Below, one piece after another: positions 1,847-20,275 of a stretch of DNA of 20,275 bases. Source of the DNA: a virus. Where the stretch lies: the IMG/VR virus record IMGVR_UViG_3300005441_000039, positions 1 through 20,275 of that record. One strand, written 5' to 3'. The notes under the pieces were generated by a model. The model saw only the letters and a list, made by a program, of their open reading frames with translations. It had not been told where the DNA came from and did not search any database. How positions within the stretch are numbered: the stretch's first letter is position 1; each line of letters starts with the position of its first letter. The position numbers and the translations under genes were made by a program.

Positions 1847-4800
1847 CTAGCCTCCGTCGAGCGTGCCCGGGATCCGCGTGCCGTCGAGCGCGAGCGTGAA
1901 CGTCGCCCGGTCCTTGGTGTCCGCGGCGTCGCGGAAGTGCTCGACGCCGGCCGCGGTGATCCCCAGGCCGGACGCCTTGGCCACGAACAGCGACCACTGG
2001 ATCCGTAGCCGCTCGAGAAACGTCCGCGAGCCCACCGGCCCGCCGGCCTCGATCACGAACGAGAACACGGTCGCGACCACGGTGTCGATGACGCCGGTGA
2101 CTATCGACTGGACCGCGGCTTTCATGTTGCCACTGGCGTCGAGCGCGGCCGGGAGCCTGGTCTGGATATCGTCGGTGTCCGCCTGCAGCGTTGCGACCGC
2201 GGCGGCCGAGGCCCGGCTGGTCACTGTCGCGTCGAGGTTGTCGATCGCGGTGGCGCGGCCCGACGTGAGCCGGCCGGTCAAGGTTGTCAGGTCCGTCTGC
2301 GCGGTTGTCAGCGCCGCGGTGGTCGCGATGCCCGACTGGATCTCGGCGACGGCATCGCTGGCGAGTGCGTTGGCGTTGATCGCGTTGGTCGAGAACTTGG
2401 CCGCGGTGATCGCGCCGTCCGCGATCGAGTTGGCGCCGAGCGCGTTCGTGGCGACGAGCGCGACGACGACGCTGGGGAACCCTGCCACGGAGTCGGCGTG
2501 CACGGCGGTGCCGAGCCACGAGCCGACGTCCGCGGCGATCTTCCCGCCGACCAGCGCGGCCGGCAGCCGGGCCTGGATATCGTCGGTGTCAGCCTGCAGT
2601 GTCGTCAGGCGCGTCTGAATGTCGTCGGTGTCCGCCTGCGTCGTCGCCAGTGCGGCCGCCGCGGCGCGCGTGGTGATCGCAGCGTCGAGGTTGTCGACCA
2701 GGCCCGCCCGGGTCGGCGTCCACGTCGCCGACGACAGCGCGGTGCTCGAGGGCGCGCGGCTCGACACGGTGGCGTCAAGGTTGTCGATTGCGGTCGCGCG
2801 ACCGGACGTGAGACGGCCGGTCAGCGTGGTCAAGTCCGTCTGCGCGGTGGTGAGCGCCGTGGCCGCGGCGCGCGTCGAGATCGCGGCGTCGAGATTCGTC
2901 ATGCCCCAGGCTGCCGCATCGTTGCGATCGACGGCGACCACGTCGAACGCAATATCAGCGTTGGTCATGGCGCCCGTACTGGTCACGATGATCGTGGCGA
3001 CGCCGAGCGTGTTGGTGTGCGCCGTCGTGAGCGCCATATTGTACAGCCCGCCGCCGAGGTCGGTGATCGTCGGCGTAATCGTGGCGTGCGAGGTCCCGCC
3101 TTTTTTGCAGAGGCTGACCACGAACACGGTAAGCCCGGCCAGGAGCGCGCCGGTCGTCGAGCTGCGCATCGTGAACCGAACGTCGTCGGCGGTGGACAGC
3201 TTGAGGGTCTGCATGGGGATCCTTCTCCGGGACGCGAACGCGACGCCGACGGTCAGACCGACGGCGATGTCGAACGTCGACGTTCCCGGCGTACCGAACC
3301 CGCTCCAGCCTTTGCTTGTGCCGTCGTTGTAGGTCGCGAAGTAGTTGCGGGTGCTGTCGCAGACCTGCGCGGTGAACGCGCCCGCGCCGCCGGCGATCGT
3401 GACGCTCGTGATGTACTCGGCGCTCACGCCGTCGTCGGCGTAGATCTTGACGGTGCCACCGTCCGCCGCGGCGACGCCGCCGATCGCGACCGCGCCGGCA
3501 ACGGTGAACGCGATGTCGTGGAGCGTGATCCACTGACTTGCGGACCAGTGATGCCCGGTGCCAACGGCGCAGCCTAGTCGCCAGCGTCGGGACACCGGCA
3601 GCTCCATCCCGACACGTCCAAAGGACGATCGCCTGATCCACTGCGCGATCGGTCGCATCGTCTCGCGACGACTCCACTGGGGAGTGCCTGTTATGACGTT
3701 TCCGCCGGAGGCGGGAAATTCATCCTGATACCATCCATCGCCGCAGTCCTCTCCGGTCTGACGCTCGACCCCCAGGGAGTACGATATCCCCGGGTACGAA
3801 TAGGCGCGTATTCCGAGATCACACCAAGCGCTGGATAGCATCCACGGGGTCGAGGGAAAACTGGGGATACGATCTGCCGCGGTGACGTAGGCAGCGTAGT
3901 CTCCGAACGCGGTATGCGATACCAGGCTGTAGCCGCAGGATCGATTGCCGCTGCCAATCCCCTGCGCCGGGATGTCCGCCGTGTAGTTCACGATCGCGTA
4001 CCCACTGAACTCTACGCTTGGCGTGATATTCAGACTCGCTCGCACATTAACCGCTAGCCGGTTGGTTCCACGGACCAGCGCCCACGCCGACGAGTCATGA
4101 TCGCACCGTCGAGTGTAGATCCGCGTTCCAGCGCAGGAGACAGTTCCGAACGATATGTTGGCGATGACCGTGGCGCGCGCGCCCTGCCCCGTTGCGTTCA
4201 CGAACGAACTCAGAGCCACCTGATTTTGATCGAACACGACCACGCCGGACTGCAGCATCGTGATCGTGCCGGGCTCCTGTACCTCAAGTTGTGCGACGTA
4301 CTGATGCCCGTCGGCGGCGAGCACCCCAAACATCATGGCGGTTGTCCCACGATCGTTGGCAACCACCGAGCGGCACGAGTGAAGCTCGCGTGTCGTGCCG
4401 CTCACCGTGAACGTGTAGGTCACCACGAGCACCGCCGACAGATTCGCGAAGCTGTTCGAGGCGAGGTTGGACTTCGCGATCAGTGCATGGACGGCGTTCG
4501 TCGTGATCGAGTACGGCGCGACGGTCAGGTCGACGATGTCCCTGTACTGCGCGCCGACGCCGATCGCGTGCTTGCACACGGCGCGCGCATCGTAGGTGCC
4601 GCCGGAGTCGAGCTTGAGCGAGAGCGTGGTATCGCCGGTTCCGGTGGTGGAATAGTCGTGCGCCGTGACCCGCAGGTAGATCTGCTTGAAGGTCTTGCTG
4701 GCTTCGGGACAAAACGTCGACAGGTTCGGGATCTGGTTGGCTGCCGCGTCGGAAACGCCGCCGGTGGTTCCGATCTCAATATCTGACGTCGTCAGCGTCG

Positions 4801-5299
4801 TGTAGTGCCCCTGGATCGGGATCTCGATCGTCTTGACGTGCGTCGCTGCCGTGTTGTCGTAGTCGTAGGTGACGTGCAACTCGGCCGTGAGGTTGTTCGC
4901 CGACGCTGCCGTGCTGTGCGAGAAGGCCACTCCGACCTGGCAGGTTTGCGAAGCGCCGCTGCCGAAGTTCGTCAGGAAGTACGCGGTAACGTCGCGCTCG
5001 ACGATCAGCGTTTCGTGTCCGATATAGTTCAACGCGAATGGGGCGTAGTCCACGTCGTCGAAGGCCACCGCGCCCAGCTTGATACCCAGTCGCCAACCGA
5101 GAACGCCGTTGAGTGCCGTGTATGTATCGCGGCACGTAACCCGCAGCCTCACCGAGCGGATCGTCCGGGTCAGCTCGGGCATGTCGATCGTGATCGCCGC
5201 GAAGTCATGCCTCGTCGCCGTCGCCAGCGTTGTGTTCGTGGCAAGCGTCGTGATCCGCGTCGCGAACGCCCAGGAAACGGTCTTACTCGCGGTGGCCAC
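1847..5299 (-). CDS. Large tail/fibre-like structural protein, 1150 aa, with internal repeats
   Basis: Starts at GTG 5299-5297, which shares its G with the TAG stop of the upstream 112-residue gene, implying translational coupling. The first about 620 residues are beta-rich and unusually rich in Cys, Tyr and aromatic residues. They look like tandem beta-sandwich domains: two stretches end in similar VTY-type strands (HVTYDYDN and VVTYTFTV). A middle portion resembles the Ig-like or carbohydrate-binding modules seen in tail proteins. The C-terminal third (about residues 790-1060) is low complexity and repetitive: LDAAISTRAA / LDATVSSRAP units, three QADTDDIQ(T/A)RL units, and a 35-residue block present twice. 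Such repeats often form trimeric coiled or beta-helical shafts. Function (fibre shaft, side fibre or tail-tip receptor binding) is inferred from position and composition. GC falls in the middle part (about 3540-4300). Confidence 0.8.
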   Translation of the reverse strand: MATASKTVSWAFATRITTLATNTTLATATRHDFAAITIDMPELTRTIRSVRLRVTCRDTYTALNGVLGWRLGIKLGAVAFDDVDYAPFALNYIGHETLIVERDVTAYFLTNFGSGASQTCQVGVAFSHSTAASANNLTAELHVTYDYDNTAATHVKTIEIPIQGHYTTLTTSDIEIGTTGGVSDAAANQIPNLSTFCPEASKTFKQIYLRVTAHDYSTTGTGDTTLSLKLDSGGTYDARAVCKHAIGVGAQYRDIVDLTVAPYSITTNAVHALIAKSNLASNSFANLSAVLVVTYTFTVSGTTRELHSCRSVVANDRGTTAMMFGVLAADGHQYVAQLEVQEPGTITMLQSGVVVFDQNQVALSSFVNATGQGARATVIANISFGTVSCAGTRIYTRRCDHDSSAWALVRGTNRLAVNVRASLNITPSVEFSGYAIVNYTADIPAQGIGSGNRSCGYSLVSHTAFGDYAAYVTAADRIPSFPSTPWMLSSAWCDLGIRAYSYPGISYSLGVERQTGEDCGDGWYQDEFPASGGNVITGTPQWSRRETMRPIAQWIRRSSFGRVGMELPVSRRWRLGCAVGTGHHWSASQWITLHDIAFTVAGAVAIGGVAAADGGTVKIYADDGVSAEYITSVTIAGGAGAFTAQVCDSTRNYFATYNDGTSKGWSGFGTPGTSTFDIAVGLTVGVAFASRRRIPMQTLKLSTADDVRFTMRSSTTGALLAGLTVFVVSLCKKGGTSHATITPTITDLGGGLYNMALTTAHTNTLGVATIIVTSTGAMTNADIAFDVVAVDRNDAAAWGMTNLDAAISTRAAATALTTAQTDLTTLTGRLTSGRATAIDNLDATVSSRAPSSTALSSATWTPTRAGLVDNLDAAITTRAAAAALATTQADTDDIQTRLTTLQADTDDIQARLPAALVGGKIAADVGSWLGTAVHADSVAGFPSVVVALVATNALGANSIADGAITAAKFSTNAINANALASDAVAEIQSGIATTAALTTAQTDLTTLTGRLTSGRATAIDNLDATVTSRASAAAVATLQADTDDIQTRLPAALDASGNMKAAVQSIVTGVIDTVVATVFSFVIEAGGPVGSRTFLERLRIQWSLFVAKASGLGITAAGVEHFRDAADTKDRATFTLALDGTRIPGTLDGG
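2227..2320 (-). repeat. Direct repeat copy 2 within the large tail gene
   Basis: Encodes the block TAQTDLTTLTGRLTSGRATA plus IDNLDATV at about residues 994-1025 of the 1150-residue tail protein. It matches the block at 2769-2861 almost perfectly in protein, while the DNA differs at about 14 positions, all of which I read as synonymous. Confidence 0.85.
2769..2861 (-). repeat. Direct repeat copy 1 within the large tail gene
   Basis: First copy in translation order (about residues 813-844) of the block repeated at 2227-2320, about 540 bp away in the same orientation. The flanking codons differ (following TVSSRA here, TVTSRA in the other copy). Confidence 0.85.
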
Positions 5300-5637
5300 T
5301 ACGGCACCTCGGGCTGTGGCATCGCGGCCCGCTCGCGCGCCGTGCTCTGCGTGTCGTCGACGATATCCTCGAAGTCCTCGGCGAGCGTGGCGTCGAGGTC
5401 ATCCTTCGTCGCCGAGCGCGTGACGGTGTTGACCACGGCCCCGGCGGCGTTGCGGACCTCGAGTTGCACGGTCAGGGTCCACGGCGGCACGTTGACGATC
5501 TCCACCCGGACCGAGACGCGGGGGTCGGTCCACAGCGCCGCGATCCGCGCGCGCAGGACGTCGACCCGATGGGGCTTGCCCTGGCGCCACCACGTGCGGG
5601 CGATTGCCGCGACGGCGGCCAGTGCTGGTGCTGCCAC
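5299..5637 (-). CDS. Unrecognised 112-aa tail-region protein
   Basis: Starts at GTG 5637-5635 and ends in TAG 5301-5299, overlapping the next start by one base. The N-terminus is Ala-rich (AAPALAAVAAIARTWWRQG) but contains Arg and two Trp. It is too polar to be a convincing membrane segment and no signal peptidase site is evident. The middle (residues about 40-75) alternates Val/Leu/Glu like a beta-sheet (VSVRVEIVNVPPWTLTVQLEVRN cut short here). The C-terminus is acidic. I do not recognise the family. Its place between tape measure and the large tail protein suggests a small tail-tip component or assembly factor. It is preceded by the shared two-block element rather than a Shine-Dalgarno sequence, and this supports the GTG start. 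Confidence 0.7.
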   Translation of the reverse strand: MAAPALAAVAAIARTWWRQGKPHRVDVLRARIAALWTDPRVSVRVEIVNVPPWTLTVQLEVRNAAGAVVNTVTRSATKDDLDATLAEDFEDIVDDTQSTARERAAMPQPEVP

Positions 5638-5674
5638 GGCCCAAGGCTCGCGCGGGCGGGCGCGTGGGTCGATA
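5638..5674 (-). promoter_or_regulatory. Two-block start-proximal element upstream of the 112-aa gene
   Basis: In the sense direction: TATCGACCC (5674-5666), 14 nt, GCGAGCCTTG (5651-5642), then GGCC and GTG. Block 1 differs by one base from the consensus TTTCGACCC. Distance from block 1 to start is 28 nt. The gap (5638-5696) holds no other gene. Confidence 0.6.
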
Positions 5675-5696
5675 CGCCGCCGCCGTCAGCGCAGCG

Positions 5697-8612
5697 TCAG
5701 CGCCGGCTGCGCACGGCGCCCTGGTTGGCCCGCAGCGTGTTGAGCACGGCCGAGGCACCGTCGCGGCTCTTGATCGCCGCCACGCCCACCGACTTGTCGA
5801 AATGATTGTGGATGTGCACCGCCGGCGCAGCCTGCCGCGCCGGGGCGCCGCCGCGCTGCTGCTCGGGCGTCTGGATCGTCACGCGCTCGCCCGGCGTGGC
5901 CTTGAACGCGACCACCTGCGAGTCGGTGCCGCCGGAGCCGCCGACGATCCCGGAGCCGCCGGTGGCCGCGCCGAAAATCGTGCCGGCGAGCGCGTCGAGC
6001 GCGTTGCCCTCCGACGGTTTGAACAGGCCCATGAACGCCATCACGGCCTGCATCGCAAGCTGCTTCACGATCAGCTTCTCGATGTCGGAGATCATCGAGC
6101 CCACCATGTCGCCCCACGCCACCTTGCCACCGCTGGCCGCGGTAGCGATCGCGTCGGCGAACGTGTTGACGTCGTCGACCAGCGTGCCAGCCAGGGCTTT
6201 GCCGAAGCCTTCGGTCTGCTGGCTCATCTGCGTGGTCATGTCCGCGAGCACAGCCGCGAGGCCCTGAGCTGCAGGCTTCGTCGCGTCGTACAGCCGCTTC
6301 GCCTCGAGCAGCTCCTTGTTGGCGCGTTGACGGTCGATCACGCCAGCATGCAGCGCGCTGTTGACCGATCGGATCGCCGCCTCATAGGCGTTGATCGGTC
6401 CCTTGATCCTGTCGAAGATCTCCCCGTAGCCGCCGAGCGCCGCCTTGGCCTTGTCGTACGTGCTCGTGGCCTCCCTGGTCAGCGTGCTTAGCTGGCCCTC
6501 TGTGAGCGCGTGCTCGACCTCTGCGCCGTGGATCGCGTCGAGCCGTTCCTTGTACACCCGCTGCGCCTCGCCCAGGCTCAGGACGAGCTCGCGCGACTTG
6601 GCGAGCTCGTCGTTGTACTCGCGCGTCGAGGGCGCCAACTCGCCGGCAGCCTTGCGCTGGGTCTCCACGAGCGCAGCCAGCTTCCCGCCGTCGTCCTGTG
6701 CGAGCTTCGTCGCTGCCGTGTCGACGCCCACGCTGACCGCGATCCCCTTGAACGTTCGCGGCCCGAGCATCGCAGCCTGGCGCGCCGTCAGGGCCGGAGC
6801 TCCGGCGGTCGCGATCCCCATGCCTTTGAGCAGCGCCGCGTTGTACTGCTGCGCGTCGAGATAGCCCGAGCGAAATAGCGCGTTCAGCCCGGCGACCCGC
6901 TCGGACGCCTCCCGGATCGGATCTTCGAACTCGTGCCACAGCTTGATTGCGGCGGGCAGCCGGCCACCGTTGATCGTCGTGATCAGCCCCTCGTACGCCT
7001 TCTGGTACTCGTCGGCGGTGAGCTGGCCCTTGACCTGTTCAGCCTTCAGGTTCGCGAGCTGCTTGCGTGCGTCTTCGACGGGCTCCTTGATCGAACGCAG
7101 CAGCTTGAACTGTGCACCGAGTCCCGTTTTGTCCGATCCCCACGGGTCGGCGAAGATGCCGGCGACGATGCCGGCCGTCTGGCCGAATTCCTTGAGCCTG
7201 TCGATCGCCAGCGGCAGCGCGTCGACTGCATCCTTCAGATCTTTGACGAAGCTATTGACGATCGCGTCGCCGGCGCGGATCGACGCGGCGCGCGCGTCCT
7301 CGGCCTTGGCGACGAACTCGGTCATGACGTCGGCCCACGTTTTCCGTAGCCCACGCATCTGGTCCATCATGCCCTGGATGCCTTCGTAGTCGACGGGCGT
7401 GAGGTTGTGAGCGACGTCGATCGCCTTGCGGATCGCGTCGCCACGCGAGTCGCCCTTACTGACAAACAGATCGACGGTACGCGAAAAGGCTTCGGTCTCT
7501 TGCTGCGCGGTCCGCTGGATCTTGCCGAACGCGACATGGATACCGTCGGCGGAGGTGATGAGCGAATCGAGTAACTCGCCGACCTTGATCTTCCCGGAGT
7601 CAACGAGCGCGGTCAGTCCCTGTCGCGTCGTCTTGAAGTGCGCCATCCAGTTCGTCGCGATCTCCGGCACCTCACGCATGATCATGTTGAGCTCGCGCTG
7701 TTCGATGTGGCCGCGCGCAGCCGCATAGGTGAGCCGCGAGACCAGGCTGCCGACGCTCTCGAGCGGCTTGCCTGCAACCTGCGCTGCCTCGCCGAGCGTC
7801 TTCAGAAGCTGGATCTGCTCGCCGTGTGAATAGTTGAGCTCGTCGGTGCCATCTCGAACAGCGTCGTACAGGTCGATCGTCGTCCGGTAGTTCGAGTGCA
7901 GATCGTGCGCGAGGACGATCTGTTCGGACACGATCTGGTTCACGTCGTGCGACGAGTCGACGAACTTGACCGCTGTGTTGTTGGCTTCGATGTACGCGTC
8001 CCGGAGGTACAAGAAGTGCTCGGCGAGCTCCTTGACCTTGGAGATTCCTTCGGTGATGCCCAGGGCTGCCGCGCCGCCGAGCGCGCCCTGAATCCCGGCG
8101 CCGATACCTGGTCCCGACGGCGCGACCGGTGCGCCCGAGCCGGCACCGCCGAGCCCGATCGTCGACGTCGCCTGCGCGGTCTGCGCCGACGCGCTGTCGC
8201 GATGCGCTTTGGTCAGGTGCTCCATCTCCGCAGCGAACTCGGCGGTCGACAGCGCGCCGCGTCTGTGGAGCTTGTCGAGCGCCACAAGCTCGAGGTTGTA
8301 CTCTCGCAACGGCCCGCGGATCCGCTCGACGATCCCGGCCTCGCGCTCGAACTGCGCGTTGAGCGCCGCGAACGGGTTGGCGTAGCGCGCGAGCTTCGAG
8401 AGCGTGTCCTCCTGCGCCCTGGCGGCGGCGGTTGCCTTGGCCAGCGCAGCGGCCGCGGCTACAGCGCCCGCAGCCACCTTGGCGCCTGCCTCGGCCCCCG
8501 CCGCGCCCGTGTGCTTGGCCGCCACGGTAGCCTTCCCGAGCCCTTGTTCGACGCGGGCGACAGCGGCTTCGGCGGCCTGGGTCTGGATCTGGACCATCAA
8601 CTGGAAGCTCAT
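5697..8612 (-). CDS. Tail tape measure protein, 971 aa
   Basis: Sets tail length and is carried inside the tail tube. The ATG at 8612 lies 16 nt after the stop of the frameshift product. The N-terminal 70 residues are Ala-rich helix. Residues about 200-390 match the tape-measure N-terminal domain common in phages and prophages (NNTAVKFVDSSHDVNQIV, then LNMIMREVPEIATNWMAHFK and LLDSLITSADGIHVAFGKIQ). Residues 850-930 have the usual hydrophobic, Gly-rich end with ATPGERVTIQTPEQQ, followed by AVHIHNHFDKS. At least four degenerate copies of a 40-residue helical unit lie at about 98-137, 506-545, 562-600 and 735-775. At roughly 0.15 nm per helical residue the predicted tail is about 145 nm, an inference. 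It follows the chaperone genes directly, the standard order. Confidence 0.93.
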   Translation of the reverse strand: MSFQLMVQIQTQAAEAAVARVEQGLGKATVAAKHTGAAGAEAGAKVAAGAVAAAAALAKATAAARAQEDTLSKLARYANPFAALNAQFEREAGIVERIRGPLREYNLELVALDKLHRRGALSTAEFAAEMEHLTKAHRDSASAQTAQATSTIGLGGAGSGAPVAPSGPGIGAGIQGALGGAAALGITEGISKVKELAEHFLYLRDAYIEANNTAVKFVDSSHDVNQIVSEQIVLAHDLHSNYRTTIDLYDAVRDGTDELNYSHGEQIQLLKTLGEAAQVAGKPLESVGSLVSRLTYAAARGHIEQRELNMIMREVPEIATNWMAHFKTTRQGLTALVDSGKIKVGELLDSLITSADGIHVAFGKIQRTAQQETEAFSRTVDLFVSKGDSRGDAIRKAIDVAHNLTPVDYEGIQGMMDQMRGLRKTWADVMTEFVAKAEDARAASIRAGDAIVNSFVKDLKDAVDALPLAIDRLKEFGQTAGIVAGIFADPWGSDKTGLGAQFKLLRSIKEPVEDARKQLANLKAEQVKGQLTADEYQKAYEGLITTINGGRLPAAIKLWHEFEDPIREASERVAGLNALFRSGYLDAQQYNAALLKGMGIATAGAPALTARQAAMLGPRTFKGIAVSVGVDTAATKLAQDDGGKLAALVETQRKAAGELAPSTREYNDELAKSRELVLSLGEAQRVYKERLDAIHGAEVEHALTEGQLSTLTREATSTYDKAKAALGGYGEIFDRIKGPINAYEAAIRSVNSALHAGVIDRQRANKELLEAKRLYDATKPAAQGLAAVLADMTTQMSQQTEGFGKALAGTLVDDVNTFADAIATAASGGKVAWGDMVGSMISDIEKLIVKQLAMQAVMAFMGLFKPSEGNALDALAGTIFGAATGGSGIVGGSGGTDSQVVAFKATPGERVTIQTPEQQRGGAPARQAAPAVHIHNHFDKSVGVAAIKSRDGASAVLNTLRANQGAVRSRR

Positions 8613-8628
8613 AGGCGCGCCCCTGGGC

Positions 8629-9467
8629 TCACTGGGCCCCTCGTGCGGTGGTGAGTCGCTGCCGGGCCGCCTCGGCCTCGGCGCGCTCGTGATCGAGCTG
8701 CCGGATGACCTGGACGAGCGTCACACTGGCCTCCCGGTCGAGCTCGTGGAACTCGCACCAAGCCACGATCGCCGTCCACGGGATCGGCCCAAGCGCCATA
8801 CCGATCGCACGGCACGTGCCCAGATCGCTCCATGCGTGGATACACATCCCGATCGCCGCGTCGCGCTCGGGCTCGTCGACCAAGGCCGCGTCGAGCTGCT
8901 GCTCGGCCTGCGTTCGACGCGCGGGGCTGGTCGCCGCGTCGTCGAGCTCGGCGCGTAGATCGCGAGCCGTCGCCGCGTTGGCTTCGCTCCACTCCAGCCA
9001 CGCGGCTACCTTTTTCCCAGCTCGGCGGCGTCCCCCAGCGGCGCCGGCCGGAAGGTGTCGGCGTCCTGCGCCCAGGCGCGAAACGCCACGTACGTCCCGA
9101 TCCCCTCGTCGGACTCGATGATCGCGGTCAGGAACTCGTGCACCTTGGCCGGCGTGCACGGCGCCGGCGTGCCGTCGTCCTCGATCACGTGGTCCCAGCT
9201 CACGACGCAGTGGTCGGCGATGAGCTTGGCTTCCTCGATGCAGCGGGCCTTCGTCTTGGCTTCGCTGATCGAGTTGTTGCCACCGCGAGCGCGGAGCGCG
9301 TTGGCCGCGTTCCAGCTCGCTGTCTTGAACCCGCGCGTGCCATCACCCGCGTGGCGTACGAGCAGCGCCGGCGGGCCGGCAGCGCACAGCCGGATGCCGT
9401 GGAACACGTAGACCGCCGTGGCCCCGTCGGGAATCGCGAGGTCCTTGACGATCTTGGTGAAGGCCAT
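8629..9467 (-). CDS. Tail assembly chaperone, -1 frameshift fusion product (G-T type)
   Basis: Predicted extended product. Ribosomes read the chaperone frame from 9467 to 9012, slip back one base on GGGAAAA, and continue in the -1 frame from 9012 to the TGA at 8631-8629. This gives 152 + 127 = about 279 residues. The second part (KVAAWLEWSEANAATARDL at its start, then a helical segment ending ARQRLTTARGAQ) has no start codon of its own near the junction and no Shine-Dalgarno sequence. It nevertheless has the residue make-up of a real protein (GPIPWTAIVAWCEFHELDR). In lambda and many siphophages the G and G-T proteins wrap the tape measure before tube assembly. The overlap geometry and the downstream tape measure gene fit that arrangement. 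Confidence 0.8.
8972..9018 (-). promoter_or_regulatory. Programmed -1 ribosomal frameshift signal
   Basis: Sense reading: slippery heptamer G GGA AAA at 9018-9012, in the phase required for tandem slippage, then AGGTA, then a stem-loop. The stem pairs GCCGCGT (9006-9000) with ACGCGGC (8978-8972). An inner GGCT (8999-8996) pairs with AGCC (8983-8980), with a single unpaired base at 8979 and a 12-nt loop. The zero-frame stop TAG (9008-9006) lies just after the heptamer. Lambda uses G GGA AAG at the equivalent site. Confidence 0.82.
9006..9467 (-). CDS. Tail assembly chaperone (G-type, unshifted product), 153 aa
   Basis: ATG at 9467, TAG at 9008-9006, ending AELGKR. The protein is mixed helical with the DW-type pattern of tail assembly chaperones (HCVVSWDHVIEDDGTPAPCT, then VHEFLTAIIESDEGI) and lies between the tail tube and tape measure genes. 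That is the conserved position for the pair of chaperones that keep the tape measure soluble during tail assembly. No Shine-Dalgarno sequence is visible. The start is preceded by the two-block element with CGACGATGGC two bases before the ATG. An out-of-frame ATG inside that block (9474-9472) is not the start, because its frame gives an Arg-rich translation. Confidence 0.85.
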   Translation of the reverse strand: MAFTKIVKDLAIPDGATAVYVFHGIRLCAAGPPALLVRHAGDGTRGFKTASWNAANALRARGGNNSISEAKTKARCIEEAKLIADHCVVSWDHVIEDDGTPAPCTPAKVHEFLTAIIESDEGIGTYVAFRAWAQDADTFRPAPLGDAAELGKR

Positions 9468-9503
9468 GCGCCATCGTCGGCGGCGTGGCGGGACGGGTCG
9501 AAA
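9468..9503 (-). promoter_or_regulatory. Two-block start-proximal element upstream of the chaperone gene
   Basis: Sense: TTTCGACCC (9503-9495), 15 nt, CGACGATGGC (9479-9470), then GC and ATG. Block 1 ends 27 nt before the start. The preceding gene stops at 9509-9507, so the element fills the whole gap. Confidence 0.62.
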
Positions 9504-9506
9504 CCG

Positions 9507-11021
9507 CTACGACGCTGGCAGGTACGCGAACATCGAGACGCCCAGCGTGTAGTTGGTGACCGGATCGCGAAACCCGCCAGCCTTGGGCGAGAGCATGATC
9601 GGCCCGTTGCCCGGGAAGGTCAGCGCGGCATCGCTGAACTTGAGCGCCGGGACCTCGAAGAAGATCCCGCCGTCGCCGTTGCGAAAGCCCGAGCCGAACG
9701 TGAGCGTGGTGTTGTTCGGCGCGGCACGGATGCCGGCGTCGCCGTTGACGTAGCACTCGGCGTCGACGCCCACCTCGGCCTTGCCCATCACGTTCTCGGC
9801 CGTGCCGTACGTGCCCTGCTGCTTGAGCGGCGAGACGCCGTTCTTGTGGGTCAGCTTCCACGAGCTGATCTTGTTGCTGACGATCTCGCCGGTCGTGGCG
9901 TCGGTGAATCGCAGGTAGGGCTGCTTGGTCATCGCGTTGAACCGCTGGACCGCGAACGACGCCTGCGCCGTGGCTGCGCCGGTCGCGCGGGTCACCGTCG
10001 GCAGCGTGACGAACGTCCCCGAGAACGTGAGCTCGAGCTTGATCAGCGCCTTCATCGCCGAGGTCACGACGAACTGGTCGACGGTCTGGCCCTGCGCATA
10101 GCAGTAGTCGGTGGCGTTGGCCGTACCGATGCCCGGCAGCGAGAGCTCGAGCTGGTAGCTCGGCTCGAGGTAGTCGGCGGCGTCGTAGGCGACCTCGCGA
10201 AGCCAGCTGCCCCAGTACAGGTCGATCGTCTTGGTCGCGCCAGCGTCGAGCGCGACCTGGGTCCAGCTGCGCACGGCAGCGTTGGTCGTGATGAGATGCG
10301 CCGCGACGGTGGTGACCTTGACGAAGCCCCCGTAGCCGGCGGTCGCGAACGCGAACGCGGTGCCCGGCACGCCGCCGACGTAGATGACCTGGCCGGGCCA
10401 GATCCCCATCGTCGTGAAGTCGGCGATCGTCGACGTGATGTTGCCGTTGACGTCGATCCCGATGTCGCCCGCCGCGCCGCGGAACCCCGCGACCTCGAGC
10501 GTGGCCGCGTAGCCCGCGATCGTCTCGGCCACGCCGCCGGCCACCGTGATCGACGTCGCCGTCGAGCCGGCGCCGACGACGAGCAGCGTGCCGTTCTGCG
10601 CGACGTTGGTACCGGTGATGAGGCCGCGAGGCACCACGAGCGTCCCGGCCTGCAGCGCGCCACCGGCGGCCACCGTGAACGCCGTGGTGGTCCGCGCCGT
10701 CGGCAGAAACCGCGACACGCCCGTGCCGCCCGAGTGCTTGATCGCCGCGAGCATCATGCCCTCGCGGAACGCGTAGGCGTGATCGAGCGTGAGATCCATC
10801 GTCAGCTTGGGCGCGGCATCGCCGTCGACGATCTCGGGCGCCTCGAGCTGGCGCAGCACCGAGAGCGGCGATGGGCTCACCGTCGACGTCTTGAGGTAGA
10901 ACTCGCTGATGCCGCCCTGGTCGGGCTGAAGCCTGAGCCAGCCCGTCGTGGGCTGGACGCCGAGCCCGCCGGTCTCGCGCGCCGAGAGCAGCCCAACCAT
11001 TTCCGACTTGCCGGTGGTCAT
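9507..11021 (-). CDS. Major tail tube protein (large form), 504 aa
   Basis: Forms the tail tube around the tape measure. Starts at ATG 11021 and ends in TAG 9509-9507. The pattern is beta-rich, with tube-protein landmarks: an N-terminal region naming the subunit fold (GGISEFYLKTSTVSPSPLSV), a central Gly/Val-rich part containing FTTMGIWPGQVIYVGG, and a conserved C-terminal part (SSWKLTHKNGVSPLKQQGT, then VPALKFSDAALTFPGNGPI and MFAYLPAS). It resembles the Phage_tube_2-like tail tube group. At 504 residues it is larger than typical siphovirus tube proteins of about 150-300. Residues about 105-190 look like an inserted Ala/Gly/Thr/Val-rich beta domain that could decorate the outer tube surface (inference). 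It lies between the tail terminator and the chaperones, the standard position. Confidence 0.85.
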   Translation of the reverse strand: MTTGKSEMVGLLSARETGGLGVQPTTGWLRLQPDQGGISEFYLKTSTVSPSPLSVLRQLEAPEIVDGDAAPKLTMDLTLDHAYAFREGMMLAAIKHSGGTGVSRFLPTARTTTAFTVAAGGALQAGTLVVPRGLITGTNVAQNGTLLVVGAGSTATSITVAGGVAETIAGYAATLEVAGFRGAAGDIGIDVNGNITSTIADFTTMGIWPGQVIYVGGVPGTAFAFATAGYGGFVKVTTVAAHLITTNAAVRSWTQVALDAGATKTIDLYWGSWLREVAYDAADYLEPSYQLELSLPGIGTANATDYCYAQGQTVDQFVVTSAMKALIKLELTFSGTFVTLPTVTRATGAATAQASFAVQRFNAMTKQPYLRFTDATTGEIVSNKISSWKLTHKNGVSPLKQQGTYGTAENVMGKAEVGVDAECYVNGDAGIRAAPNNTTLTFGSGFRNGDGGIFFEVPALKFSDAALTFPGNGPIMLSPKAGGFRDPVTNYTLGVSMFAYLPAS

Positions 11022-11058
11022 GCAGCCATCGTCGAGCCGACGCCCGAGCGGGTCGAAA
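11022..11058 (-). promoter_or_regulatory. Two-block start-proximal element upstream of the tail tube gene
   Basis: Sense: TTTCGACCC (11058-11050), 15 nt, CGACGATGGC (11034-11025), then TGC and ATG. Block 1 ends 28 nt before the start. The ATG in block 2 opens a three-codon frame (ATG GCT GCA TGA) whose stop overlaps the real start. The preceding gene stops at 11069-11067. Confidence 0.62.
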
Positions 11059-11066
11059 CCGCCCGG

Positions 11067-11495
11067 CTACTTGGTCTCGTAGTATGAGAACGGCGTGCGG
11101 ACCATCAGCGTAAACCACCGCGTGTCGGTGCCGATCTCCTGGGTCACCGATGCGCCTGTGGTGAGCGGCTCGCCGCCGTCTGGCGCCGGCAGATTCACCA
11201 TCTCGAAGATCGCCCGCACGGCGCCGACGAGCTGGGCCAGGCCGTAGCGCCCGGCGCCCGCCGCGCCCCACAGCTTGACGGTGATCCACCCGTTGCGATC
11301 GACGAACCGCGAGCCGGCCGCGCCCGAGGTGAGCTGTGCCGCGGTCGTGTGCGTAATCGTCAGCGCGGCGAAGCTCGCGGTCGGCGGCAGCTCGATCGCG
11401 CGGTTGTCGAGCGCGTACGGCACGTTGCTCGAGGCCGCCGGCCAGGCCGCCGCGAACGTCGCCGAGATGAGCTCGATGGCCTGGGCCTCGGTCAT
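11067..11495 (-). CDS. Tail terminator / tail completion protein, 142 aa
   Basis: The protein has the alpha/beta make-up of phage tail terminators. It starts with a helix (EAQAIELISATFAAAWPA), has NVPYALDN and a strand with ALTITHTTAAQLT, then a WITVKLWGAAGAGR segment, and ends in a strand (WFTLMVRTPFSYYE). This resembles the DUF4128/terminator group, which caps the finished tube and provides the head-binding face. The ATG at 11495 lies 2 nt after the TAG of the upstream gp10-like gene (11500-11498), so translation is probably coupled. Its position directly before the tail tube gene is the usual one. The assignment rests on composition and synteny and not on a diagnostic residue. Confidence 0.72.
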   Translation of the reverse strand: MTEAQAIELISATFAAAWPAASSNVPYALDNRAIELPPTASFAALTITHTTAAQLTSGAAGSRFVDRNGWITVKLWGAAGAGRYGLAQLVGAVRAIFEMVNLPAPDGGEPLTTGASVTQEIGTDTRWFTLMVRTPFSYYETK

Positions 11496-11497
11496 GT

Positions 11498-11980
11498 CTA
11501 GTCGTCGCCGAACGGCGAGTACGCGCCCGCCATGTTGCCGGCCGCGTCGCCACCGCGATCGGCGATCGCCCCCGCGATCACCGGCGACAGGTCAATCGCG
11601 ACGCCGTCGTACTGGGACTGGATCTTTTGCACGGCCTGTTCGATCGCGATGAGGTCCCAGCCGGCCGCGGCCTGCGTGCTCGCGCCGCCGATCAGCCGGC
11701 CGATGTACGGCACGTTGTTGGCCTCGAACAGGTCGCCGTCGCCGAGCTTGAACCGCATGACCTGCGCCACGCCATCGGCGTGCGCGGTCTCGCCGTTGCC
11801 GTCGACCTCGACCACGAACGCGGCGCCCACCGCGGGTACCCAGTTGGCGTGCGCGTGGCCCGTCTTGACCGGCGTGGCCTCGCGCAGGTTGGCGTCGATC
11901 TCGAGGATGAGCGCCTTGCAGACGTTGGCGAGCTCAGCGCGGAACTTGCCGCTGACCGCGACGACCTGCGGATCGGACAT
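11498..11980 (-). CDS. HK97 gp10-like neck / head-tail joining protein, 160 aa
   Basis: Residues about 30-50 carry the family signature TPVKTGHAHANWVPAVG, the TPV-TG-N-W pattern of HK97 gp10-like and lambda Z-like tail completion proteins. Residues 85-115 carry NNVPYIGRLIGGASTQAA followed by a helix, which is the NN-PYA-LE-type segment of the same family. These proteins act at the head-tail junction. The ATG at 11980 lies 3 nt after the TAG of the proline-rich gene (11986-11984). Only a weak purine run precedes it, so coupling is likely. Lying just before the tail terminator supports the call. Confidence 0.8.
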   Translation of the reverse strand: MSDPQVVAVSGKFRAELANVCKALILEIDANLREATPVKTGHAHANWVPAVGAAFVVEVDGNGETAHADGVAQVMRFKLGDGDLFEANNVPYIGRLIGGASTQAAAGWDLIAIEQAVQKIQSQYDGVAIDLSPVIAGAIADRGGDAAGNMAGAYSPFGDD

Positions 11981-11983
11981 CGG

Positions 11984-12295
11984 CTACCGCTTCGAGCTGC
12001 GCTGCTGCGGCGGCGCAGGCGCGCGCCTGGGCAGCTCGGTCTCCGGGACCGGCAGCGGCGCAGGCCGGGGCTCCGGCACGGGCTCGGGCTCGGGCGCTGG
12101 CGTCGGGTGAGCGACCTCGATCATCGCCGAGCGCCAGAAGTTCCACGCCGCGTCCTGGGTCATGTCGAGGTCCGCGTACGGGAACGGATCGCCGGCCGCG
12201 AACGCCCGATCGCCGTAGGTGAACGGGATGCGCGCGACGAACGAACAGCCCGGCGTCGGGGCCATCCGCGGACAGTGGTCGGTGGAGCCCTGCAT
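11984..12295 (-). CDS. Small proline-rich protein following the capsid gene, 103 aa
   Basis: ATG at 12295 (an alternative ATG at 12265 would remove ten residues), TAG at 11986-11984. Residues 20-62 contain a motif shared by many small phage head-region proteins (TYGDRAFAAGDPFPYADLD), followed by a helix. Residues 64-98 are a Pro/Glu-rich linker with repeating PAPEPEPVPEP. The C-terminus is basic (PPQQRSSKR). The order small conserved head, extended linker, basic tail suggests a flexible accessory protein at the capsid or neck, but I cannot name the family. It lies 11 nt after the capsid stop and has no clear Shine-Dalgarno sequence, so coupling with capsid translation is likely. Confidence 0.68.
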   Translation of the reverse strand: MQGSTDHCPRMAPTPGCSFVARIPFTYGDRAFAAGDPFPYADLDMTQDAAWNFWRSAMIEVAHPTPAPEPEPVPEPRPAPLPVPETELPRRAPAPPQQRSSKR

Positions 12296-12306
12296 CGCGC
12301 CGTGCG

Positions 12307-13338
12307 CTACTGGACGATGCCGGAGAAGAACACGCCGCACTTGGGTGACACGATCTGGAACGTATCGTCGACGGCGCCCTCGATCCAGAACGAGCGGATG
12401 TCCTGGTCCCAGTAGCGCCAGTTGCGGAAGCCCTCGCTGTTGCCCGTCAGGCCCTGCCAGGTGAAGCGCAGGCCGGCCGTGGTCTGCAGCTTGCTCGGCG
12501 ACGGGTTGACGTAGCCGAGCCACGCGGACTTGCTCGACATGATGAAGGCGGGCGTGTTGACCTGCGCCGTGCCCGCGTTGGTCGTCGTCTCGTTCGCGGT
12601 GTTGTAGACCGCGCCAGCGACGAGGACCCTGTCGACCTTGAAGAGGTTCGCGATGTCGTCGAGCGTGGCCTGCGCCGACATACCGGGGCGCTGGCCGTTG
12701 ACCACGCGGGCCAGGACCTGCGCGTTGGTGAGTAGCGGCGCGACGACGTCGGCGCCCAGGATCAGGGTGTTGTACTTGCGGCGGGAGGCGAGCTTGCCGA
12801 TCGGGTGCTCCGCGAGCACGTTCGAGATCGGCACGCCGGTCGACGCGTTCCAGTAGATCGCCTGCACGCCGCTCGGCGCGGACGCGACGCCGGTGACGTC
12901 GCGCCCCCAGACGCCGGTCTTCCACGCGATGGAGGCGACCCGGACCTCGTCGGAGATCGCCATGACCTCGGCGACACTCTTGGTCGCGACCTCTTCGGCG
13001 TCGATCGCCGACGTCGCGATCATCTCCTCGGTCAGCTTCTCGCGATAGCCGAACTGCTGGGTCTTGGCCGGCGTGGACGACGCGTTCCAGCCGCCCTCTT
13101 CGGCCTTGGTCCCAGGCGCGCGCGGCTGCGCCTTGTTCTGGCCGATCGACGCCATGTCGATCGTGTAGTACGTGAACGCCTGCTCGGGCTCGCCGATGGT
13201 CGGGAACCACTGGCGCGCGATGAAGTCGCCCGCGTCCTCCTGGAAGGCCGCGATCGAGATGTTCTCGAGGATGAGGTTGCGAGCGAGGTCGCCCGGTGTG
13301 GCGGCCTTCTGAACGCGCGTGTGGATGTGGTCGGGCAT
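12307..13338 (-). CDS. Major capsid protein, 343 aa
   Basis: Builds the icosahedral shell. ATG at 13338, TAG at 12309-12307. Length is typical for an HK97-fold capsid. Features fitting the fold: an N-terminal helical arm (HTRVQKAATPGDLARNLILE), a strand region with ARQWFPTIGEPEQAFTYY, a spine-helix segment (EEVATKSVAEVMAISDEVR), and a C-terminal axial part ending in VDDTFQIVSPKCGVFFSGIVQ. It lies directly after the protease/scaffold and decoration genes, the usual assembly order. A strong Shine-Dalgarno (TAAGGAA, 5 nt from the ATG) fused to the upstream stop fits a highly expressed gene. I do not see a catalytic crosslinking residue pattern and do not claim one. Confidence 0.88.
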   Translation of the reverse strand: MPDHIHTRVQKAATPGDLARNLILENISIAAFQEDAGDFIARQWFPTIGEPEQAFTYYTIDMASIGQNKAQPRAPGTKAEEGGWNASSTPAKTQQFGYREKLTEEMIATSAIDAEEVATKSVAEVMAISDEVRVASIAWKTGVWGRDVTGVASAPSGVQAIYWNASTGVPISNVLAEHPIGKLASRRKYNTLILGADVVAPLLTNAQVLARVVNGQRPGMSAQATLDDIANLFKVDRVLVAGAVYNTANETTTNAGTAQVNTPAFIMSSKSAWLGYVNPSPSKLQTTAGLRFTWQGLTGNSEGFRNWRYWDQDIRSFWIEGAVDDTFQIVSPKCGVFFSGIVQ

Positions 13339-13343
13339 GGCGG

Positions 13344-13350
13344 TTCCTTA
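13344..13350 (-). promoter_or_regulatory. Shine-Dalgarno of the capsid gene fused to the upstream stop
   Basis: TAAGGAA in the sense direction. TAA is the stop of the decoration gene and AAGGAA is the ribosome binding site, 5 nt before the capsid ATG. It fixes the start at 13338. Confidence 0.85.
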
Positions 13351-13719
13351 GGTGGCGAGCAGCGCGCCGGGTTCCCAGGTTGCGGCGACGATGTCGCCGA
13401 TGGCGCCGCCCTCGACGATCTGGCCGAGGACGTTGTGCGTGGCCACCGCGACGATCGCGTTGCCAACGGCGTCGGTCGAATACTTCTGGCCGGCCGTCAT
13501 GATCGCGCCGAGCACGACCTTGACCTTGGGGCCGACAAGCAGTTCGACCGCCTCGCCGGCGAGCGGCTTGTTCGCGATGATGCCGACGCCGAGCGCGCCC
13601 GCGGTGCCCGCGAAGGTCACCGTGCGATTGCCATTGATTACCGCGACGCAGAACTGCTTCGCGGCCAGGCTCACGCTGGCGGTGTAGCCGCTGTCGCGCT
13701 CCGAGTTGATCGTTCCCAT
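13348..13719 (-). CDS. Capsid decoration / cement protein (DUF2190-like), 123 aa
   Basis: Starts at ATG 13719 with a strong Shine-Dalgarno and ends in TAA 13350-13348. The sequence is almost entirely short beta strands and Gly turns: NGNRTVTFAGTAGALGVGI, LAGEAVELLVGPKVKVVLG, and HNVLGQIVEGGAIGDIV. This is the pattern of DUF2190-type decoration proteins, which bind the expanded capsid surface and stabilise it. Length (about 110-125 residues) and position between protease and major capsid genes match that family. It is co-translated with its neighbours through stop/Shine-Dalgarno overlaps on both sides, as expected for a protein needed in amounts close to the capsid protein. Confidence 0.82.
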   Translation of the reverse strand: MGTINSERDSGYTASVSLAAKQFCVAVINGNRTVTFAGTAGALGVGIIANKPLAGEAVELLVGPKVKVVLGAIMTAGQKYSTDAVGNAIVAVATHNVLGQIVEGGAIGDIVAATWEPGALLAT

Positions 13720-13727
13720 GGGATGAG

Positions 13728-13734
13728 CTCCTTA
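13728..13734 (-). promoter_or_regulatory. Shine-Dalgarno of the decoration gene fused to the protease stop
   Basis: TAAGGAG in the sense direction. TAA ends the protease-scaffold gene, and AAGGAG lies 8 nt before ATG 13719. It decides that start. Confidence 0.87.
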
Positions 13735-14451
13735 TGCCTGCACGCGGGGATAGGCTTCGGCGTAGAGGTCCGAACCCTCGGCGGTCTTGAGGAAGTCAGC
13801 GGTCGCCGCCGCGAGCTGCTTCGTCGTCGGCGCGTCGACCTTGAACCTGGCCTTGGCGAACCCGACGAGGCCGGCGTCGAAGGCGGCCTTGGGCGAGTCC
13901 GGTGCTGGCGCGGTGCCGGGGTTGACGCCGTGCGCCTTGGTGAGCGAGAGCATGGCGGCATCGGCCGCCTTGATCGCTTCGTGCGCCTCCTTGCGAATGG
14001 CCTCGTCGGGGATGCCGTCGATCGCGCGGACGATCGCGACGTGCACCGGGAGCGCCTTGGCGAAGTGCGCCAGGTCGGCGGTGGCGCGCTTCTCGATCGC
14101 CGCGGTCTCGGTGGCGGCCTGCGCCTTGGCCAGGAGCTCGGTGGTGACTGCCTGCGCCTTGGCTGCGAGGTCGGCCTGCTTGGCGAGCTCGAGCGCGACC
14201 GGGCCGTCGGACTTGCGGATCTCGATCCCGCTCGCGGTCTTGTAGACCGGCGCGTCCGCATCGGCCAGCGCCTTGAGCACGGTCTCGCGATCGAGGTGCG
14301 ACTTGGCGAGGAACGCCTCGGCGTCGCCGCCGCGGAGCTGCGCGTGGTGCGCGCGCTGGCTGTCGGTCAGCGTGTTGAGCTGCTCGAGCCGCGCCACCTG
14401 CTTGGTGAGCTCGGCGATCCTTGTCTCTTCGGCGGTGGGCACGGTGGGCAT
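13732..14451 (-). CDS. Possible nested scaffold protein from an internal in-frame start, 239 aa
   Basis: An in-frame ATG at 14451 (Met311 of the protease-scaffold gene) would give a separate 239-residue protein. It would be nearly all helix: EETRIAELTKQVARLEQLNT at the start, long Ala/Glu/Lys-rich helices, then PKAAFDAGLVGFAKARFKVD near the end. Many phages make scaffold this way from inside the protease gene (lambda C/Nu3, Mu I/Z), and this is the basis of the proposal. Supporting DNA signals: AAGGAG directly abuts the ATG (closer than ideal) and TTTCGACCC, the first block of the repeated element, lies 35 nt upstream. Without this start, scaffold would come only from proteolysis of the fusion protein. 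Mass spectrometry would decide. Confidence 0.5.
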   Translation of the reverse strand: MPTVPTAEETRIAELTKQVARLEQLNTLTDSQRAHHAQLRGGDAEAFLAKSHLDRETVLKALADADAPVYKTASGIEIRKSDGPVALELAKQADLAAKAQAVTTELLAKAQAATETAAIEKRATADLAHFAKALPVHVAIVRAIDGIPDEAIRKEAHEAIKAADAAMLSLTKAHGVNPGTAPAPDSPKAAFDAGLVGFAKARFKVDAPTTKQLAAATADFLKTAEGSDLYAEAYPRVQA

Positions 14452-15381
14452 CTCCTTGGGAACGACGGTAGGGTCCGCGCCAGGACGGGTCGAAACACCC
14501 GCGGGCGCACGCGCGACGACGACGGAAATCGTGGGGCCGTCGACGGCCGGATCGCAGGCGGGCTCGCAGGTTGGCGGCTCGGCCTCTTCGACGAGCGCGG
14601 CGGCGAGGACCTCGGCCGGCACGGGTTCGGCGACCGCGTGATCGTGGCCCGAGTCGAGCGCGATCGTGACCACGCCCGTCGCGGCGTCGTAGACCCACGC
14701 GTGGCAGTGGCCTTCGGTGGCGCCTTCGGCGACCTGGTAGCTGGTCGACAGCCGGTCGCGATAGTAGCTCGCCGGCTCGTCGAGATCGATCGAGTGCTGG
14801 TGGCCCTCGACGATCGACGTCAGGACGGTGCGCTTGCGGAACTGACGCACTGGCGCGTTCTTGACGAGTTCGCGCTCACCCGTCCCCGCGATCGAAAACG
14901 CGTTCAGCTCGCCGCTCTCGTAGCGCTTGAATGCTTCCGTGCTCGGCTTCATGCCGATCGCCAGCCCCTCGACGTCCCCGCGCACCTTCAGCGCTGCCTT
15001 GACGTCAGCGGTGAGCGGCAGCATGAAGATCACGCGACCGTCAGACCCGGTGCTCTCACCTTCGTGCATGACGTCCGAGTAGGCGCCTGCCTCGGCGAAG
15101 TCCGCCGCGATCTTGATCAGCTCGTCGCCACCGACAACGGCGTCGTTTTGCATGTCGACATGCGGCGTCCTGCCGCCGTCAACCGTCGAGGCGAGTGCGT
15201 AGCCGAACACGATCCCGAGCCGCGGAACCGTCGTCGCGACCTTCGCGACCAAGGTGAAGTCCTCGGCGCCCGACCGTGCGCGCTTCGCGAGGACCACATT
15301 GGAGATTTCGCCCTGTGCTCCGCGGTCCACGAGGCTGATGAACTTCAGACTCTTGATTCGCAGGCGGTTGTATGGGGCCAC
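13732..15381 (-). CDS. XkdF-like prohead protease fused to a scaffold-like coiled coil, 549 aa
   Basis: Starts at GTG 15381-15379 and ends in TAA 13734-13732. Residues 1-175 resemble the XkdF-type putative phage serine protease domain: an opening LRIKSLKFISLVDRGAQGE, then DMQNDAVVGGDELIKIAADF, VMHEGES (His106) and FSIAGTGERE (Ser163). His106 and Ser163 are the likely catalytic pair by comparison with prohead proteases. Residues 190-250 contain three GHxH motifs (GHQH 193, GHCH 224, GHDH 245). Residues 255-310 are an acidic Pro/Ala linker. Residues 311-549 are a helical, Ala-rich scaffold-like region. The protein should process the prohead and, through its C-terminal part, shape it. It sits just before decoration and capsid genes as expected. 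The protease call is family-based, and the catalytic residues are inferred. Confidence 0.83.
   Translation of the reverse strand: MAPYNRLRIKSLKFISLVDRGAQGEISNVVLAKRARSGAEDFTLVAKVATTVPRLGIVFGYALASTVDGGRTPHVDMQNDAVVGGDELIKIAADFAEAGAYSDVMHEGESTGSDGRVIFMLPLTADVKAALKVRGDVEGLAIGMKPSTEAFKRYESGELNAFSIAGTGERELVKNAPVRQFRKRTVLTSIVEGHQHSIDLDEPASYYRDRLSTSYQVAEGATEGHCHAWVYDAATGVVTIALDSGHDHAVAEPVPAEVLAAALVEEAEPPTCEPACDPAVDGPTISVVVARAPAGVSTRPGADPTVVPKEMPTVPTAEETRIAELTKQVARLEQLNTLTDSQRAHHAQLRGGDAEAFLAKSHLDRETVLKALADADAPVYKTASGIEIRKSDGPVALELAKQADLAAKAQAVTTELLAKAQAATETAAIEKRATADLAHFAKALPVHVAIVRAIDGIPDEAIRKEAHEAIKAADAAMLSLTKAHGVNPGTAPAPDSPKAAFDAGLVGFAKARFKVDAPTTKQLAAATADFLKTAEGSDLYAEAYPRVQA
14452..14495 (-). promoter_or_regulatory. 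Block-1 copy inside the protease gene before the internal scaffold start
   Basis: Sense TTTCGACCCGTCC begins at 14495. With the base before it, the 14 bases are identical to those upstream of the chaperone gene. It is followed by 35 nt from the end of the 9-base block to ATG 14451. Block 2 is not recognisable here, and AAGGAG abuts the ATG. It is coding in the long gene (VSTRPG). Confidence 0.4.
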
Positions 15382-15419
15382 GAGCGCAAGGCTCGCAGCC
15401 GCTACGCGGCGGGGCGAAA
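15382..15419 (-). promoter_or_regulatory. Two-block start-proximal element upstream of the protease-scaffold gene
   Basis: Sense: TTTCGCCCC (15419-15411), 14 nt, GCGAGCCTTG (15396-15387), then CGCTC and GTG. Block 1 ends 29 nt before the start. The spacer contains a perfect short inverted repeat GCCGC-GTA-GCGGC (15410-15398). Confidence 0.62.
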
Positions 15420-15433
15420 CGGCTCAGCGCAGC

Positions 15434-15745
15434 TCAGCGCTTGGACGGCGCGGGGGCGTGCGCGGCCGCGTGCGGCGCTGCGTGCGTTGAGGCTGCAGCG
15501 GCGGCGACAGCGGCCTTGTGCTCGGCGGCGGCCTGCTCGGCTTTGTGCTGGTCCTCGGCGTCTTCTTCGGCGTTGCGCCGCTTGAGCTCGACGAGCGCAG
15601 CTTCGGCGAGCTCGACCTCGGCCTTGCGCGCCGCGGTCCGGCTCTCGAGCCGTTCCTTCTCGGTTCGCTTGGCCAGCTCGGCAAGCTGGACGGTGCGGGC
15701 CTCGGCGGCCTTGAGCTCTCGTTCGCGTTCCAGTTCTGTCGGCAT
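15434..15745 (-). CDS. Small coiled-coil protein, 103 aa
   Basis: ATG at 15745, TGA at 15436-15434. Residues 1-80 are an uninterrupted charged helix (ELERERELKAAEARTVQLAE, then KRTEKERLESRTAARKAEVE and QHKAEQAAAEH) with heptad-like spacing. Residues 81-103 are an Ala/His/Pro tail ending PAPSKR. No known domain is evident. Lying between the minor head and protease/scaffold genes, it may be an auxiliary scaffold or internal head protein, but this is only positional. It has no Shine-Dalgarno sequence. The two-block element ends 4 nt before the ATG and supports this start. Confidence 0.7.
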   Translation of the reverse strand: MPTELERERELKAAEARTVQLAELAKRTEKERLESRTAARKAEVELAEAALVELKRRNAEEDAEDQHKAEQAAAEHKAAVAAAAASTHAAPHAAAHAPAPSKR

Positions 15746-15782
15746 GCGCCAAGGCTCGCAAGCAGCCCAGGCGGGGTCGAAA
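15746..15782 (-). promoter_or_regulatory. Two-block start-proximal element upstream of the coiled-coil gene
   Basis: Sense: TTTCGACCC (15782-15774), 14 nt, GCGAGCCTTG (15759-15750), then GCGC and ATG. Block 1 begins directly after the TGA of the minor head gene and ends 28 nt before the start. Confidence 0.62.
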
Positions 15783-17552: not shown

Positions 17553-17560
17553 CGCGCGGC

Positions 17561-17570
17561 GTCTTTCCTA
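17561..17570 (-). promoter_or_regulatory. Shine-Dalgarno of the minor head gene overlapping the upstream stop
   Basis: TAGGAAAGAC in the sense direction. TAG is the stop of the 124-residue gene and AGGAAAG is the ribosome binding site. It selects GTG 17552 over ATG 17537. Confidence 0.75.
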
Positions 17571-17942
17571 TGCCCGGCACTGGGCCGTGTAGACAGCTCC
17601 CGCTGCGTCCCTGTCCACGCCGCCGTCAACGATCGTGTACGTCTGGCCCTGGATCGTGATCCGGTCGCCGGGCGCCGGGACCTGTGCGCCCGCGATCGTC
17701 GTCGCGAACAGCTTGATCGCGATCTGAACGCCCGGGATCAGCGTGCCCGCGAGCTGCAAGGCGCCGAGCGACGCCTCGATGCCCTGGGCCGCGAAGCTCG
17801 TCAGTACCGGGTTCGACCCACCGCTCACCTGTCCCGGCGTCGGCGTGCCCTCGGTGATCTTGATCAGCACCGCCGGCCGCGTGAGCCCGGCCGCCGGGAT
17901 CTCGGTGCCGATGATCGTCGCGATGTCGTCGAGTAGCGACAT
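17568..17942 (-). CDS. Probable head-closure / head-tail joining protein, 124 aa
   Basis: ATG at 17942 overlaps the TGA of the upstream adaptor gene (TGATG), and the gene ends in TAG 17570-17568. Residues 20-45 carry a phrase common in these phage proteins (AVLIKITEGTPTPGQVSGGS). Residues 88-124 contain PGDRITIQGQTYTIVDGG followed by a closing strand, VYTAQC. The GD-I-G-TY-IV ending is typical of small beta-barrel head-closure/stopper proteins that seat below the adaptor ring. It is the partner expected next to the DnaT-like adaptor. The call rests on this ending and on synteny. Confidence 0.7.
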   Translation of the reverse strand: MSLLDDIATIIGTEIPAAGLTRPAVLIKITEGTPTPGQVSGGSNPVLTSFAAQGIEASLGALQLAGTLIPGVQIAIKLFATTIAGAQVPAPGDRITIQGQTYTIVDGGVDRDAAGAVYTAQCRA

Positions 17943-20228: not shown

Positions 20229-20275
20229 CTACAGGCACGACGCTACAAGTCGAAGTCGTGGCGGGGCGAATCCCC
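20229..20275 (-). other. Gap upstream of portal: end of a preceding gene and a block-1-like sequence
   Basis: In the sense direction the frame from the right edge reads GDSPRHDFDL then TAG (20245-20243), with nine of ten third positions G or C. It may be the last residues of the upstream gene, by synteny the terminase large subunit. ATTCGCCCC (20271-20263) is a weak block-1 match 34 nt before the portal ATG. No block 2 is recognisable. The window ends too soon to decide. Confidence 0.3.

Follow-up and report, generated by a model that had tools for sequence, protein, structure and literature searches.

Sequence evidence for a probable programmed -1 frameshift of the lambda G/GT type in the tail assembly chaperone gene of an uncultured phage

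The question raised by this locus is whether a phage tail assembly chaperone gene is read in two ways, once to its own stop codon and once, by a -1 slip of the ribosome, into an open frame that ends just before the tape measure gene. The window, i.e., the whole stretch of 20,275 nucleotides that was analysed (IMG/VR record IMGVR_UViG_3300005441_000039), carries the locus on its minus strand with the following features.

9507..11021, minus strand: adjacent upstream gene for a tail protein, at the major tail protein place (phrog_290 'minor tail protein', E 7.2e-12)
9006..9467, minus strand: G-like tail assembly chaperone gene in the zero frame, 153 aa (ATG at 9467, TAG at 9008-9006)
9012..9018, minus strand: slippery heptamer G GGA AAA, read directly from the sequence (an in-phase heptamer occurs in 37/37 loci)
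9006..9008, minus strand: zero-frame stop TAG, read from the sequence
8972..9006, minus strand: stem-loop, candidate stimulator, 7 + 4 bp plus a bulged A, beginning 5 nt past the heptamer
8629..9012, minus strand: T-like extension in the -1 frame, 127 residues and a stop, joining the chaperone at residue 152
5697..8612, minus strand: tape measure protein gene, next downstream (PF20155 TMP_3, E 2.8e-20; phrog_3336)

The chaperone gene sits downstream of the tail protein gene and upstream of the tape measure gene, as in the lambda G/GT type, and several related records annotate the gene at the place of 9507..11021 as tail tube or major tail protein. Three further frames were observed in the window. 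An ORF of 1150 codons lying past the tape measure gene (1847-5299, minus strand) had no PHROG match and only a sub-threshold Pfam match, and a 408-codon ORF at roughly the major capsid protein place (11984-13210, minus strand) had no match in Pfam, PHROG, or NCBIfam. A 751-codon open frame (8832-11087, plus strand) runs opposite the chaperone and tail protein genes and is probably an effect of the 69% G+C content. Rfam and tRNA scans gave no matches, and no near match to window DNA 5001-20275 was found among 50,697 phage records.

On the minus strand the G gene ends in GAG CTG GGA AAA AGG TAG. The GGGAAAA at 9018-9012 is in phase with the gene (9467-9006), and only the single codon AGG separates it from the TAG. 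Read one base back, the same stretch becomes GGG AAA AAG GTA GCC and remains open until a TGA that ends at 8629, giving 127 residues past the slip (KVAAWLEW...) and a fusion of 279 aa whose two parts join after residue 152. Next comes the tape measure ATG, at 8612. A preliminary description had placed the heptamer in the correct phase 3 nt before the zero-frame stop and had let the -1 frame run for 127 codons to 8629, just short of the tape measure gene; the sequence bears out both statements, and all positions given there hold. Ten window genes offer 4869 in-phase positions, and 9018-9012 is the sole heptamer of the form [A/G]3-AAA-N there; the five other in-phase heptamers in these genes are of CCC/GGG types. 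Both codons are infrequent in the same ten genes, with GGA accounting for 7% of Gly and AAA for 11% of Lys codons. The heptamer is more than chance would give in the window genes.

The upstream product is, on sequence and modelled fold, a predicted tail assembly chaperone. A match to phrog_313 'Tail assembly chaperone' (E 5.7e-6) was obtained for the zero-frame protein, whose AlphaFold2 model, built with 14 aligned sequences, reached a pLDDT of 84.9. Searched against BFVD, a collection of predicted viral structures, the model gave 12 matches at E <= 0.001, the named ones being two tail assembly chaperones and two tail proteins. Foldseek against the PDB returned nothing at E <= 1e-3. Upon later re-alignment of 110 PDB chains, by which alone it was listed, the HK97 tail assembly chaperone 2ob9 came first with a Z of 5.6, followed by 2.4 in the next row; 103 of 107 residues were aligned with an rmsd of 6.2 and only 11% identity, and since this Z is middling the match is a lead rather than proof. 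A gene with 58% identity lies at the corresponding place in G002/L009. Relatives of the G protein were found neither by a pattern scan of viral contigs nor by tblastn in the 50,697 phage records, the window G has no Pfam or NCBIfam match and no convincing match among PDB sequences, and one of its 14 aligned relatives matches Phage_TAC_4 (E 7.2e-4).

The -1 frame extension belongs to a known tail chaperone family. It matches Pfam Phage_TAC_18 (PF23812) with an E of 2.1e-9 and 37.8 bits against a Pfam cut-off of 27, as well as phrog_3817 'tail chaperonin' (E 3e-17), and phrog_8233 is matched by residues 80-270 of the fusion, a stretch that spans the junction (E 9.6e-10). The codon-position G+C of the extension in the -1 phase, 0.74/0.53/0.84, is like that of the coding sequence of the window. 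No match was obtained for T among PDB sequences or for the T model in BFVD at E 1e-3 or below. Single long BFVD proteins match the models of both halves, namely Loki A0A0P1KKK4 (262 aa), CcrColossus K4K660, and Sansa A0A0K1LLW3, with weak E-values for the T model of 0.014, 0.036, and 1.4, respectively.

We consider it very likely, judging from the sequence, that the locus is a programmed -1 ribosomal frameshift of the lambda G/GT type. The reading is strongly supported because of the domain content, the missing start codon of the extension, and the in-phase heptamer in 37/37 loci, and the same evidence upholds the earlier proposal of a lambda-type slip joining the tail chaperone to its extension. 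Most ribosomes would make the 153-aa chaperone that ends at the TAG at 9008. A minority would slip back by one base, as their tRNA-Gly (on GGA) and tRNA-Lys (on AAA) shift to GGG AAA, and would then read 127 more codons to produce the 279-aa fusion. On the lambda model, the shorter product may bind along the length of the tape measure protein, and the extension carried by the longer one may recruit the tail tube subunit. The occurrence of the slippage, its rate, and the roles of both proteins are what we infer for this phage.

Relatives were gathered by homology to the extension and not by the heptamer. The comparison comprised 37 loci, i.e., the window and 36 others in which the end of G could be read. 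IMG/VR supplied 15 of these, a soil Deltaproteobacteria MAG one, another genome one, and phage records 19, which were opened out of 168 with a T match. A genome scan in the phylum of G001 matched 2 of 377 genomes and yielded only the genome of L025 and L034. Left out were L016, whose contig begins inside T so that G is absent, the loci on contigs shared with counted loci (L001-L006, L026-L033, and L035), and L036, whose weak phrog_3817 match (E 2.9e-4) was regarded as false because its frame reads like a homocysteine methyltransferase. The G stop of L048 was placed by string search for this count.

All 37 loci carry an in-phase GGGAAA[A/C/G] or AAAAAA[C/G] 0-39 nt before the upstream stop. GGGAAAC was the most common type with 15 loci, followed by AAAAAAC, GGGAAAA, AAAAAAG, and GGGAAAG with 12, 5, 4, and 1, respectively. 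The distance to the G stop was 0 nt in 21 loci, in which the heptamer directly abuts the zero-frame stop, 3 nt in eight, 12 nt in three, and 39 nt in five. When the loci were grouped into 27 clusters at 90% T identity, the heptamer was present in every cluster, where 0.48 of 27 would be expected after shuffling the last 100 codons of each gene; the clusters are not independent trials because the loci share ancestry. The preliminary description had named loss of the heptamer in relatives that keep both frames as the observation that would speak against a slip, and such a loss was seen in none of the 37 loci.

The window and its nearest loci L009, L010, and L025 all read GGGAAAA-NNN-TAG with a spacing of 3 nt. 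The heptamer switches type between close relatives yet stays slippery. In the Septimatrevirus records, for instance, one position holds AAAAAAC in KP1 (L046) and GGGAAAC in AUS260 (L051). L017 (AAAAAAG) and L019 (GGGAAAG) have extensions in one 90% T cluster and differing G ends, which resembles a recombination joint close to the slip site that preserved its slipperiness. Phase-wise divergence beside the slip site was noisy. In the Yuavirus/Vojvodinavirus group (L043 YuA, L038, L044, L045, and L052), the heptamer was found 39 nt before the stop. Heptamers ending in C, in which the A-site codon encodes Asn, were observed in 27/37 loci (L007, L011, L014, L020-L024, L037, L039-L042, and others). 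Such an A-site codon is usually regarded as eukaryotic in type. It is termed mammalian-like in PMC5009743.

The best-surviving alternative, that the extension is a separate gene with its own start or is reached by re-initiation after the G stop, is nonetheless very improbable. It is how 14 of the 17 annotated phage records opened present the extension (BAPIC_0004 and AUS260 of the 19 carry no annotation and were left out), and some relatives do have a TTG, GTG, or ATG shortly past the G stop. In the window, however, the first in-frame ATG, GTG, or TTG past the site is the TTG at 8883, 125 nt beyond the stop and within the TAC_18 match, and the extension frame lacks any of these codons until +167 in L009 and until +209 in L010. 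A separate gene would also leave the in-phase heptamer of 37/37 loci unexplained. Two further records carry a joined gene and one, that of YuA, leaves the extension without annotation. The expectation that standard gene callers would miss the extension and leave it looking intergenic therefore fits YuA, 1 of 17 records, but not the other 16, which annotate it separately or joined.

Against a slip stands the announcement of the Stenotrophomonas phage Salva, in which its two chaperone genes are said not to be linked by a programmed frameshift (PMC7953286). In the Salva record (NC_071017.1, L049, 1405-1731), however, a GGGAAAC lies in phase and abuts the TGA, the -1 frame is open through the extension, and the G protein shares its C-terminus with that of Siara. 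The sequence argues, contrary to the published statement, that Salva would use the same slip.

Transcriptional slippage on the run of five A at 9015-9011 could in principle give the -1 product and is exceedingly improbable. Bacterial transcriptional slippage usually needs runs longer than five A, so the run in the window is short, and in the 15 of 37 loci with GGGAAAC the process is implausible because only three A follow the GGG. That a sequencing error split one real frame into two, conceivable for a single environmental viral record, is refuted by the relatives, since 36 other loci, cultured phages included, share the split at the same place, and its probability is negligible.

Returning to ribosomal frameshifting as the preferred reading, the role of the hairpin past the heptamer was considered. 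A spacer of 5 nt (9011-9007) leads to an 11-nt 5' arm (9006-8996) and a 3' arm at 8983-8972, which form 7 + 4 pairs, leave a single A bulged, and fold at -22.3 kcal/mol. Compared with dinucleotide shuffles the z-score was -0.73 for 52 nt and -0.47 for 55 nt, and 12.6% of the 50-nt stretches on the minus strand fold as well or better; such stems are common because the sequence has 69% G+C. An alignment of five sequences kept 72.7% of the pair cells, and two pairs were changed on both sides, which was equalled by 132 of 500 shuffles. The stem of the window is not intact in L009, L025, and L034, three of the four nearest relatives, while L010 forms a long stem in that position, with changed pairs. 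Across 32 loci, the 55 nt past the heptamer had a mean z of -1.15, with 13 of 32 below -1, and relatives differed, with good stems in some and none in others. As a conserved element the hairpin was therefore not accepted, on these z-scores and on pairs only partly kept in relatives. The stem-loop and its 5-nt spacing are present as previously described, but the attribute 'strong stimulatory' is the weaker part of that description, resting on one sequence whose stability is what the composition leads one to expect and whose pairs are partly kept in relatives; the candidate hairpin may help slippage in the window phage.

A tentative and rather unlikely proposal is that within this chaperone family selection keeps the slip site itself with no shared stimulatory structure, and that the adjacent stop or host tRNA modification may set the rate, as suggested by heptamers that mostly end in AAC and often lie against a stop. 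The window belongs to the smaller branch with GGGAAAA and 3-nt spacing, whereas most members use heptamers ending in AAC.

The closest described system is the lambda G/GT slip, with G and GT products at about 30:1 and wide conservation in long-tailed phages (PMC5009743, citing Xu et al. 2004). Lambda (G GGA AAG) and the window have in common the place before the tape measure gene, the -1 direction, the first six heptamer bases, and a G-like chaperone with a T-like extension, while the lambda heptamer ends in G and that of the window in A (PMC5009743). The protein families of the window (phrog_313 and TAC_18) differ from those of lambda, and its slippage is predicted from sequence. PRFect treats the same frameshift class (PMC10885494). 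For Acinetobacter phage vB_AbaS_Loki, a -1 fusion of the two tail chaperone genes gp12/gp13 has been predicted (PMC5313236), and it is the 262-aa product of this phage that matches the models of both window halves; the Loki heptamer is AAAAAAC directly at the stop, compared with GGGAAAA 3 nt before it in the window. Homologous extensions, with 29.7 and 35.7% identity to the window over the matched part, occur in the Stenotrophomonas phage Siara (CPT_Siara_043/044) and the Rhodobacter phage RcSimone-Hastad (78/79), respectively. Both records carry a joined gene, which that of Siara names a frameshift product, and in both a GGGAAAC abuts the stop, unlike in the window.

Only the window phage is new, because the mechanism, the position, and the use of the protein family are already on record. 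The locus is a well-supported, ordinary, and unsurprising addition to the lambda G/GT class in an uncultured phage, and by itself the frameshift opens no new biology. What it gives is a gene model for an uncultured G+C-rich phage, with a 279-aa fusion besides the 153-aa chaperone, and a rule for the family: in the gene that precedes phrog_3817/TAC_18, an in-phase GGGAAA or AAAAAA should be sought ahead of the stop codon. Applied to phages of Pseudomonas, Stenotrophomonas, Xanthomonas, and Bordetella, this rule would mend annotations that present the extension as a separate gene.
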